Origin: a virus
IMG/VR virus record: IMGVR_UViG_3300036985_000179
Coordinates: 1-35,199 of that record
DNA: 35,199 nucleotides
Strand: one strand, 5' to 3'
Both the position numbers and the translations under genes were made by a program. How positions within the stretch are numbered: the stretch's first letter is position 1; each line of letters begins with the position of its first letter. Below are positions 22,777-25,925 of the stretch, one piece after another. The notes under the pieces are model-generated. The model saw nothing but the letters and a program-made list of their open reading frames with translations. It had not been told where the DNA came from and made no database searches.

Positions 22777-23230
22777 AGTATTTATCCCTTGCTTCTTGTG
22801 CTACTAAATCAGCTAATTCAATATCTTTATAGCTTCCAAAATTTGTTTCTTTACCATTGATTACCATTCTTACTCTATATTTTTTAATGTCTTTTTTATA
22901 AGAAACATTTTTGTACCCCAATATATTAGATTTTGACAATTTAGAATTTTGTGCGTTTTGTTTGTTGCTTGCCTCTCGCAAATTTTCAATTTTGTTATTA
23001 AATGGATTGCCGTCTATGTGATCTACAATTTTTGGAATAAAACCATAGTGATACATAAATATTAAACGATGAGCCATGTAATTCTTACCAAACAATCCAA
23101 TAACTACGCATTTTTTATTAATAGTTCCAGCAACGCTGTTAATTTTTTTTCTAAAACTTGTAGGTTTTAACCAGATAAAATTACCATTTTTATAGTAAAA
23201 AAGGTTTTTTAATAATTCTTGATTAATCAT
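22751..23230 (-). CDS. HNH endonuclease with AP2-like C-domain (copy 1)
   Basis: This 159-residue HNH protein has AHRLIFMYHYGFIPK (53-67), the core VDHIDGNPFNNKIENLR (69-85) with His and Asn catalytic-type residues, and a C-terminal AP2-like beta domain (LGYKNVSYKKDIKKYRV, then GKETNFG). It starts with an ATGA overlap to the replication-type gene upstream, and its end overlaps the next gene by 26 bases. A homing endonuclease is the best reading. It differs from the second copy mainly in the centre, so the two are relatives, not a fresh duplication. Confidence 0.85.
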   Translation of the reverse strand: MINQELLKNLFYYKNGNFIWLKPTSFRKKINSVAGTINKKCVVIGLFGKNYMAHRLIFMYHYGFIPKIVDHIDGNPFNNKIENLREASNKQNAQNSKLSKSNILGYKNVSYKKDIKKYRVRMVINGKETNFGSYKDIELADLVAQEARDKYFGKFARHS

Positions 23231-23613
23231 AATTGTTCCTCTAACTGTTTAATCTTTTGACTAATTCTTGCTCTTAATGCTTGCCAATTCTCGCCAGCGT
23301 AAGGAGTTATCCCTATTTCTTTAGCCTTTTGCATAGTAAGTTCTTCGGTTGCATAAAAGGGCAAAGGTGGTCGTTTATTGCCTTTAGCTTCCTCTATTAC
23401 GATCTCATCCTCAAAGCGATACTGGCCTAACCAAGTGGCTGCATGGGGTATGAAATCCATCTCTGTATCTTTTGTTTTCCAATACTTAACATGGTTTGGC
23501 AAGGCTTCTAAGGCTTGTTTCTGCTCATCGCTACGCAAAGCCTCAAACTTCCTTTGTGCTACTCGTTTACTTACTTTTCTTGGATATAAAGCCCAGAATG
23601 TTTCAAACATCAT
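23227..23613 (-). CDS. Replication protein, lambda-O C-domain-like
   Basis: This 128-residue protein begins with the motif FETFWALYPRKVSKRVAQRK. The FWxxYPRKxxKxxA pattern is typical of the C-terminal half of phage O-like replication initiators that contact the DnaB helicase. FIPHAATWLGQYRFEDE follows, also conserved in that half. The N-terminal origin-binding winged helix of full-length O proteins is missing, so this is either a stand-alone helicase-recruiting protein or a partner of another DNA-binding factor. It is the only recognisable replication gene in the genome. The identification is by motif, and its origin partner is unproven. Confidence 0.6.
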   Translation of the reverse strand: MMFETFWALYPRKVSKRVAQRKFEALRSDEQKQALEALPNHVKYWKTKDTEMDFIPHAATWLGQYRFEDEIVIEEAKGNKRPPLPFYATEELTMQKAKEIGITPYAGENWQALRARISQKIKQLEEQL

Positions 23614-23830: not shown

Positions 23831-23942
23831 TTCTATGGTATCTATCTTTAGGATTATTAATCATGCTAATAATTAGTTCGTCTATGCTAAAAAACCATTG
23901 TGTTACTTTCATGCCGTCATGCTGCATGATTGTAAAACTCAT
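23823..23942 (-). CDS. Small protein (39 residues) in leftward operon
   Basis: This short gene encodes MSFTIMQHDGMKVTQWFFSI and then DELIISMINNPKDRYHRNA. Its ATG overlaps the stop of the 84-residue gene (ATGA), and its end overlaps the start of the membrane protein by eight bases. The tight packing in an operon with such overlaps supports translation. No motif is visible. Confidence 0.5.
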   Translation of the reverse strand: MSFTIMQHDGMKVTQWFFSIDELIISMINNPKDRYHRNA

Positions 23943-24193
23943 TTGTCTTGTGCCTTTCTTAGTATTGCTCTAGCAAATGCTGGTGCGTTCAATTCGCCTT
24001 CCATTGTTGAATATGCTTTAGCCAGCCAATTTATTTCCTCATCTGTTAATTCTTTTACTGGATTGGCTTTCAACGCCTCTATTTCAGCTTGTTGCTGGCG
24101 TAGCATGGTGGCGGCTTTGCCAACCAAATTCTCCGATGTATAAGATTCCTCTCTTGATTTGTCCAACAAAAAAGCCAATTCAGTAGCGTTCAT
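23939..24193 (-). CDS. Phage hypothetical protein, helical
   Basis: This 84-residue protein begins MNATELAFLLDKSREESYTS and ends PAFARAILRKAQDK. A predicted coiled coil lies at about residues 30-45 (RQQQAEIEALKAN). It belongs to a type of small helical protein frequent in phage early regions, function unknown. It is placed immediately after the 110-residue gene (no gap) and overlaps the 39-residue gene. Confidence 0.6.
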   Translation of the reverse strand: MNATELAFLLDKSREESYTSENLVGKAATMLRQQQAEIEALKANPVKELTDEEINWLAKAYSTMEGELNAPAFARAILRKAQDK

Positions 24194-24526
24194 TTAAACC
24201 CCCAACACTTTATTATTACGCATTAATAAAAGTACCTTGTCTAATCCTTTGCAGTCTTTTATGGATTCAAGCACTAAATGGGTAGAAGTAATACATTGTT
24301 TTCCTTTGTATAGCGACCCAGTTACGGCATCCATCATATAAGGGGTTGCATGGTAGTCTGTAGCGATTGTTACAGGGGTAAGGATGATCTCCCCCTCGTT
24401 TGTAATTCCTCTGTACAGGAGTCGGTCTGCAAGCCATTTCAGCTTGTGTGGTTTTTGCTGCCAGGTAGGAAAGCAACTCGTAGAGTCGGCACACATTTCA
24501 GATAAAGATTTTTTTATTTGTTTCAT
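24194..24526 (-). CDS. First gene of leftward operon, unknown
   Basis: This 110-residue protein was not recognised. It contains CADSTSCFPTWQQKPHKLKW near the start, VTIATDYHATPYMMDAV in the centre and IKDCKGLDKVLLLMRNN at the end. It is the promoter-proximal gene of the leftward early-type operon. Upstream are a possible -10 (complement of 24592-24597) and the duplicated control module. A role early in infection is likely from position, and nothing more can be said. Confidence 0.55.
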   Translation of the reverse strand: MKQIKKSLSEMCADSTSCFPTWQQKPHKLKWLADRLLYRGITNEGEIILTPVTIATDYHATPYMMDAVTGSLYKGKQCITSTHLVLESIKDCKGLDKVLLLMRNNKVLGV

Positions 24527-24547
24527 AAATTTAATACTAATCTACAT

Positions 24548-24597
24548 TTCTACATAAACGCAAGAATTATTTTGTTGTGAAAATGCGACACATTATA
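24548..24597 (-). promoter_or_regulatory. Leftward control module, copy 1
   Basis: On the given strand TTCTACAT (24548) and GCGACACAT (24585) lie 37 bases apart. The same two words with the same 37-base distance occur at 25788 and 25825, in front of the HTH gene. Two further TCTACAT words sit nearby. A leftward TATAAT (complement of 24592-24597) overlaps the GCGACACAT word. The module is probably a promoter/operator unit shared by both leftward operons. Confidence 0.55.
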
Positions 24598-24693
24598 CAA
24601 AGTGACGGAAAGTATAATAACTGCAAAACCACCTCAAAAAAATAATGCTGTAAGTGCATGAAATTTCAATAAAAATTCGTGCAAAAATAGGTC

Positions 24694-24762
24694 ATAACCA
24701 AGTAAATTTTCAAGCAATAACCAAGTAAATTTCCCAGTAAAAACAAAGTAAATGCTGTAACT
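24694..24762. repeat. Three 23-bp iterons (candidate origin)
   Basis: The word AACCAAGTAAAT occurs at 24696 and 24719, and AACAAAGTAAAT at 24742, an exact 23-bp period (two helical turns). The first two units share the 16 bases ATAACCAAGTAAATTT. This is the arrangement of iterons bound by replication initiators. The region is gene-free and AT-rich, and it lies upstream of the operon that contains the O-like gene. Confidence 0.6.
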
Positions 24763-24815
24763 GTAAAAAAACAATCTGTAGCCTGTAATTTGTGCAATAT
24801 ATTGAACAAAAAAGT

Positions 24816-24876
24816 TTCCCGAACGGGAAGAATGTAGGAAAAAGTAGGCAAAAATAGAGAAATATTCCCGAACGGG
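24816..24876. promoter_or_regulatory. Pair of CCCGAACGGG inverted-repeat sites
   Basis: Two copies of CCCGAACGGG (24818-24827 and 24867-24876) lie 49 bp apart. Each is an inverted repeat of CCCG/CGGG with a two-base centre. The first extends to TTCCCG-AA-CGGGAA. Such GC-rich palindromes in an AT-rich gap are probable protein-binding sites. Confidence 0.5.
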
Positions 24877-24881
24877 GTATT

Positions 24882-24985
24882 TTGTAAAGAAAAGTTTTGG
24901 GATTGTAAAGTTAAGTCAAGCGCATTGTAAAGTTATTAAATGACTCATTAATAAGGCTTTATCTGTTTAAGGACTCTTTAATAAG
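24882..24985. repeat. TTGTAAAG and GACTCNTTAATAAG repeats
   Basis: TTGTAAAG occurs at 24882, 24903 and 24925 (steps of 21 and 22 bp); the last two extend to ATTGTAAAGTTA. GACTCATTAATAAG at 24942 and GACTCTTTAATAAG at 24972 follow with a 30-bp step. Phased short repeats in the same gap as the 23-bp iterons suggest a compound origin or control region. Confidence 0.5.
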
Positions 24986-25035: not shown

Positions 25036-25274
25036 AGTAGTATTAAAGTCTTTAGGAAGGTTACTGCTCTTTCGGTGAACGAACCTAGCCTACCTAGATT
25101 CGCCTTCATCTGCTCCATCGGAGTTACAGAACCCGCCAGACTTACGAGGAGTAGGCTCTGGCTTCGCCACCTACATTGCGCTGTTTCATCCTCTTACCCT
25201 GCTAGTAACGCTTTACTGCTCCTGTGTCGCTACGATGTCGTTAGAGCCGCCAACACAGGAAAGTACATCTTACA
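25036..25274. other. Gene-free, GC-richer structured stretch
   Basis: No convincing reading frame starts here. The sequence is visibly richer in G and C than the repeat region to its left. It holds a 9-bp hairpin with a three-base bulge and three-base loop (25151-25174, GTAGG..TGGC / GCCA CCTAC) and other small palindromes. A small RNA or control region is possible, and no tRNA cloverleaf was found. It lies downstream of the leftward nuclease-like gene. Confidence 0.4.
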
Positions 25275-25598
25275 TCAGAACTCGAACTCTTTGCAAGCCC
25301 ATCTTCCATTCGGCTGCTTAAACCATCCTAAGACTAGGATCTTCCAGTTAGATCTAACAAGCTCTGGCAAGTATTCTGATTCCGATATTTTTTTTATTCG
25401 TGAGGACATATTGGATTTGCTGGTGATCTGCACTCCTACAGTTTCTCCGTTCCCAATAGCCAGAATGTCGAAAATAGAGAACAAGTCCTTTTTTCTTCTT
25501 GTAAAGGAGTTGTAGCTTTCGACTACATCGCATTTATAGCCCCTGGACTCCAGCAGAGCAATTGTGCGGACATTTTGACTAGCCAAGCAAGCTCTCAT
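25275..25598 (-). CDS. PD-(D/E)XK-like nuclease candidate
   Basis: This 107-residue protein has the layout of a small restriction-fold nuclease: N-terminal helix (TIALLESRGYKCDVVES), then RRKKDLFSIFDILAI (Asp 38 and Asp 44), then the strand TVGVQITSKSN, in which Gln replaces the usual Glu of the E-x-K pair. This QxT variant is known from resolvase-like proteins. It overlaps the HTH gene upstream by 20 bases and is cotranscribed with it. Activity is uncertain because of the altered motif. Confidence 0.5.
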   Translation of the reverse strand: MRACLASQNVRTIALLESRGYKCDVVESYNSFTRRKKDLFSIFDILAIGNGETVGVQITSKSNMSSRIKKISESEYLPELVRSNWKILVLGWFKQPNGRWACKEFEF

Positions 25599-25764
25599 TC
25601 ATTCGGCCTTCAGAAGCCTCTATGATCGCTGTATGCCATTTCTTAGGGATGCCATTCCGCATCTTCCAGGCGTAGGCCGTTACATACTTAACGCCAATCT
25701 TTTCGCATAGGTTTTTGATTGTTCCAAATTCTTCCATGAGATTGTCAAATGCTGTCTTTTCCAT
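25579..25764 (-). CDS. Cro/YdaS-like HTH regulator
   Basis: This 61-residue protein is a small helix-turn-helix of Cro/YdaS type. FGTIKNLCEKIGVKYVTAYA contains the turn (LCEKIG) and recognition-helix region (VKYVTAYAW), followed by MRNGIPKKWHTAIIEAS, the typical end of such repressors. A strong ribosome site (TAGGAGA) sits before the ATG, and a longer upstream reading lacks one. It lies next to divergent promoters and probably controls them and the leftward operon. No integrase or CI-length partner is present. Confidence 0.7.
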   Translation of the reverse strand: MEKTAFDNLMEEFGTIKNLCEKIGVKYVTAYAWKMRNGIPKKWHTAIIEASEGRMNESLLG

Positions 25765-25776
25765 GATTTCTCCTAA

Positions 25777-25871
25777 GTAGAACTTTATTCTACATGAGTG
25801 CAAAAATACAACAGTTGCTAAAAAGCGACACATAAAAATATTTCTACATTTCTTGTAAAAACTCTACATTT
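25777..25871. promoter_or_regulatory. Divergent control region with operator-like repeats
   Basis: GTAGAA-N5-TTCTAC (25777-25793) is a perfect 6-bp inverted repeat just upstream of the HTH gene. TTCTACAT (25788) and GCGACACAT (25825) repeat the spacing of the module at 24548. Further TCTACATTT words lie at 25843 and 25863. TTCTACA-N5-TGTAAAA (25842-25860) is a near-perfect inverted repeat. The word pattern suggests operators for the HTH protein between the leftward pair and the rightward recombination operon. Confidence 0.55.
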
Positions 25872-25925
25872 ATGGATTAGTATTTATCCATGCAGTTCTT
25901 TTTAACACTCGTGAAGGGGTACAAA

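Follow-up and report, generated by a model that had tools for sequence, protein, structure and literature searches.

A selected, strictly phased direct-repeat DNA site recurs as an accessory element in many otherwise different phages

Three direct repeats in an IMG/VR virus sequence belong to a site that recurs in dozens of other IMG/VR phages, many of which share little else: a ~17-bp unit, AAATTTACTTTGTTATT, paired at a distance of exactly 23 bp. Comparison of these sequences showed the array to be a selected, strictly phased DNA site which acts in cis, is accessory and independent of position and, in the collections searched, is restricted to phages. It is probably not the replication origin of this phage, and the factor that binds it is probably not encoded by phages. 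In the following, the window denotes the whole stretch of DNA analysed, i.e. the complete source record of 35,199 bases.

Results

Structure of the array and its surroundings

Copies of the 12-mer AACCAAGTAAAT start at positions 24696 and 24719, and AACAAAGTAAAT follows at 24742. The 23-bp period of the three 12-mers given in the preliminary description was thereby borne out in positions and spacing. A check of the entire window identified only these three copies within one mismatch, and when the region was simulated 200 times with a first-order Markov model, no three-copy array with a period between 15 and 40 arose. The array lies in an AT-rich stretch with 29% GC. With a position-weight matrix (PWM), its full 17-bp units were best read on the minus strand:

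24693..24709, minus strand: array unit 3, AAATTTACTTGGTTATG, PWM score 22.3, the copy at 24696
24716..24732, minus strand: array unit 2, AAATTTACTTGGTTATT, PWM score 24.8, the copy at 24719
24739..24755, minus strand: array unit 1, GCATTTACTTTGTTTTT, PWM score 22.5, the copy at 24742

Along the minus strand, a helix-turn-helix (HTH) protein gene, the gene of a 107-aa protein, an RNA gene, an AT-rich block, the array and a leftward gene from 24526 follow each other:

25579-25764, minus strand: HTH protein
25275-25598, minus strand: 107-aa protein, unnamed
25131..25260, minus strand: Betaproteobacteria-1 RNA, RF02932 (Rfam, 83.5 bits, E 3.7e-14), a mere neighbour upstream of the array
24809..24896, minus strand: ~85-bp module containing the CCCGAACGGG palindrome twice, at 24816-24829 and 24864-24879, about 50 bp apart
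24194..24526, minus strand: 110-aa open reading frame (ORF) downstream of the array, conserved in relatives, no family match
23227..23613, minus strand: O-like 128-aa protein, a neighbour, matching only the C-terminal part of replication-initiator profiles

The region had been described as gene-free. This holds for protein genes, none of which is supported between 24527 and 25274; the RF02932 RNA lies within the region, however, so the description is only partly correct. The RNA is conserved among relatives, with an Rfam match in 15 of the 18 related loci tested. Past the Rfam model, a further ~90 nt of highly conserved 3' sequence (CGGGTTCTGTAACTCCGATGGAGCAG...GAAAGAGCAGTAACCTT) are kept in relatives (window 25040-25260, minus strand), which may extend the RNA gene to ~220 nt. 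RF02932 gave no match in 274 proteobacterial genomes, where the control was likewise silent, and no paper on the motif was found. In some relatives (L008 and L020), an HNH endonuclease-like reading frame separates the RNA from the gene of the 107-aa protein.

In addition to the two CCCGAACGGG palindromes, the AT-rich block beside the array contains repeats of TTGTAAAG, which occur three times, at 24882, 24903 and 24925, with a spacing of 21-22 bp, and are also present in L003, L084 and L031. The ~85-bp module is found in phages of other families as well, where it is 80-90% identical; it adjoins the array in the window and, in L081, L101 and L128, flanks the pair on the opposite side. Separate TGTAGA/TCTACA repeats, a candidate operator of the HTH protein, are located in the promoter of the leftward gene (24540-24560) and again where the HTH promoter diverges (25790-25880).

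Distribution among relatives and other phages

The window family, i.e. 72 syntenic loci obtained in a scan with the 107-aa protein, carries the array only patchily. The gap that holds it varies between 288 and 1433 bp, and the AT-rich block is altogether absent from some relatives, e.g. L036 and L012. PWM pairs were detected in WIN, L003, L024, L031, L039, L042, L046, L051 and L060, and all 10 pairs had a spacing of 23 bp when 12-45 bp were allowed. When the array was mapped onto the phylogeny of the 107-aa gene, it was present in 9 of 49 syntenic relatives and had changed its state at least six times, an estimate from one gene and a quick method in which recombination is possible. Three genome-length relatives (G024, G023 and G029) had no unit above the PWM threshold anywhere, and this accessory occurrence in close relatives argues against an essential origin. 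Conservation of the 23-bp units among relatives, which the preliminary description had named as a check, was thus confirmed for the phasing, kept far beyond this genome, but not for the repeats themselves, which most of the 49 relatives lack.

A scan of IMG/VR DNA for two units at 23 bp yielded 57 stretches. When the spacing was left free between 12 and 41 bp, 51 non-redundant contexts were obtained, of which 35 had a spacing of 23 bp and at most four any other single spacing. Bases outside the search pattern were conserved in the 23-bp pairs (T at +12 in 35/35, A at +11 in 27/35), while spacers and flanks were not. A stricter pattern had four matches in 257 Gb of GTDB versus 49 of the 57 IMG/VR loci, and at least one of the four is phage-derived, as L134 carries phage genes. 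The pair was absent from 274 proteobacterial genomes with up to three mismatches, and the single unit from 369. Consensus-pair blastn against isolate phages and plasmids returned single-unit or degenerate matches and no pair; the matches in Flavobacterium were one 17-mer. A near-DNA search with the array region gave only short unrelated matches in isolate phages, a poorly aimed host-order search of 31 genomes did not detect the array, and a literature search for the motif letters returned nothing relevant. A single-unit scan also brought up a lineage in which one unit adjoins a terminator hairpin; this was set aside as a coincidence or a separate case.

Each tested pair-bearing record of 35-165 kb had exactly one array when up to two mismatches were allowed; most IMG/VR records may be incomplete, and this is a count within records. 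Two perfect units were the only ones above the threshold in an 81.5-kb record, and with three mismatches a single weak extra match, at chance level, appeared in one 136-kb record. The surroundings of the site are diverse. The pair is located between tRNA genes in L102, L110 and L123 and sits at the margin of a phage tmRNA gene in L111 and L125; elsewhere it occupies intergenic DNA or short ORFs related to window positions 23939-24193, in which each unit falls in a different frame. The tmRNA genes that overlap the pair are permuted (L111:1788-2301, tag ANDELYALAA; L125:1970-2435, tag ANDERFALAA). A junction of tRNA-Pro and a gene exists with and without the pair, L421 being devoid of a stretch contained in L422 and L410; related phages of 60-236 kb had no pair anywhere. 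The sense strand reads TTTACTTTGTT in the desaturase gene described below, in the tmRNA gene and in L106/L123, and AACAAAGTAAA in orf84 homologues, L102 and L110. It is not constant, which therefore points to double-stranded DNA as the likely functional form of the pair.

A search for a protein family common to all carriers, covering ORFs of at least 40 aa in 12 pair-bearing genomes at phmmer sensitivity, found none. The full-length initiator of the L092 lineage was rejected as a partner of the site, since other carriers do not possess it.

Selection within a desaturase gene

A fatty-acid desaturase gene of large phages was among the matches listed in a further scan, and carries the pair within its coding sequence. 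The genes (L290:2055-2759 and homologues L322-L401) reside on IMG/VR contigs of up to 165 kb and encode proteins about 60% identical to bacterial ones; the phage desaturase is a possible auxiliary metabolic gene. Homologues were fetched by peptide patterns outside the pair. The pair was present in 17 distinct genes with 66-100% amino acid identity, and in these the synonymous difference was zero at eight of the nine unit codons, compared with a mean of 0.336 elsewhere. Among 211 codon windows of the shape of the pair, the pair itself had the lowest synonymous difference. By this measure, natural selection is preserving the letters of the pair. Desaturases without the pair align gap-free to those that carry it, which indicates that it was gained or lost by substitution, not insertion. 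The tRNA-Pro junction, where L421 is short of an entire stretch, presents the reverse situation.

Discussion

The repeats had been interpreted as iterons of a theta-type origin served by the O-like protein. Their iteron-like character was upheld, as strict 23-bp phasing together with selection is what would be expected of a protein-binding site. The proposed origin was not. In that role, an initiator would bind the 23-bp repeats and open the adjacent AT-rich DNA, and direct repeats about two helical turns apart in an AT-rich stretch, a single locus per genome and the ability of coding DNA to hold origins agree with it. Of the hallmarks of a theta origin, however, the phased direct repeats were found, but a replicon-encoded DNA-binding initiator and presence in all close relatives were not. 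The site is patchy in the window family and missing from genome-length relatives, its carriers share no initiator, and its desaturase and tRNA contexts are devoid of a conserved AT-rich partner. The O-like protein matches PHROG phrog_270 at positions 179-288 of 383, and nothing in it corresponds to the N-terminal part. The suggested analysis of GC skew was uninformative: the extrema lay away from the site in other genomes, and in the window the skew was explained by gene orientation. An origin is unlikely, though possible for individual phages. A role as operator or activator site for the transcription of a neighbouring gene is slightly less likely still. The array of the window is located upstream of the leftward operon starting at 24526, and the pair of L102/L122 is flanked by a tRNA and a ribosome-binding site, but neighbour, distance and strand relative to the genes all vary, and other pairs occur on both strands deep within ORFs or amid tRNAs.

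The unrelated locations, the patchy presence in the window family and the tRNA-Pro junction with and without the pair are reminiscent of a mobile mini-element or recombination site (a MITE-like remnant, an att site or a transposon end) inserted in phages. We regard this as improbable, as the gap-free desaturase alignment indicates substitution, the lineages have different spacers and flanks, where copies of one element would be alike, and the carriers have no recombinase gene in common. An element acting as RNA, such as an antitoxin-like repeat RNA, an sRNA target or a processing signal, would suit the frequent placement at well-transcribed sites like tRNA clusters and the tmRNA gene, but is very improbable given that either TTTACTTTGTT or AACAAAGTAAA can be the sense strand. 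Chance similarity in AT-rich DNA hardly comes into consideration: the AT-richness of the units and the occurrence of isolated ones by chance or in one lineage only would agree with it, but the exact spacing, the enrichment over GTDB and the frozen synonymous codons contradict chance, and the spacing distribution refutes it.

We tentatively prefer a cis-acting site read by a DNA-binding protein of the host or of a mobile element, with a benefit for the whole molecule. Two, in the window three, 17-bp direct repeats 23 bp apart would be bound by a sequence-specific DNA-binding protein. Since the carriers have no phage gene in common, this factor would come from the host cell or from a mobile element residing in it, and since genomes of 35-165 kb make do with a single site at any position, its binding would act on the molecule as a whole. 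The phage DNA might be marked as exempt, as in transposon target immunity; alternatively, the site might titrate a competitor's initiator or repressor. Although target immunity and titration both fit, searches of the collections turned up no host genome, plasmid or transposon end that bears the array, and for lack of such a cognate the combined reading stays below an even chance. Many phages, close relatives included, also manage without the site, which speaks against this reading. Protection or decoy at the level of the molecule is thus the leading, yet unproven, mechanism. Its narrower form, rather doubtful at present, is that unrelated phages of the same host group keep one two-unit site as a molecule-wide passport that functions without any phage protein and could mimic transposon ends (target immunity) or competitor iterons (initiator titration); it would then be directed against competitors or defence systems at the level of DNA.

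A strongly selected site that recurs in different phages no more than once per genome, at any place, on either strand and in any gene implies a shared cell factor that reads it. If the site protects or marks phage DNA, it would represent a protein-free counter-measure that is invisible to gene-based searches. Even as a mere host-factor site, its conservation inside ORFs would illustrate that phage coding sequence can hide information at the DNA level.

Iterons of plasmids and phages (RepA, TrfA, lambda O) are direct repeats of 17-22 bp about two helical turns apart, at one locus per genome. The site described here is similar in its phased direct repeats, its single locus and, in the window family, its AT-rich surroundings. 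In contrast to those iterons, it is accessory in close relatives, usually has two units only and comes without a common initiator gene; moreover, pairs also occur inside genes unrelated to each other and in clusters of tRNA genes, where they lack a conserved AT-rich partner.

The ends of transposons such as Tn7 (TnsB), Mu and Tn3 contain tandem transposase sites of ~22 bp, and one of these immunises a whole molecule in any place and orientation. In this target immunity, end repeats on the target that bind transposase exempt it from insertion. The tandem direct sites of the phages, independent of place and orientation, may be compared with such ends in a functional sense only. Unlike for Tn7, Mu and Tn3, no transposon with these repeats emerged from exact GTDB pair matches and mismatch samples, in which the hosts are perhaps unsampled.

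Solitary CRISPR repeats (Racrs) and pseudo-ToxI are decoys by which phages counter defence systems, and they act as RNA. The pair differs from them in having no constant transcribed strand. By analogy, it may nevertheless resemble these decoys as a short, host-element-like repeat that unrelated phages carry as accessory sequence.
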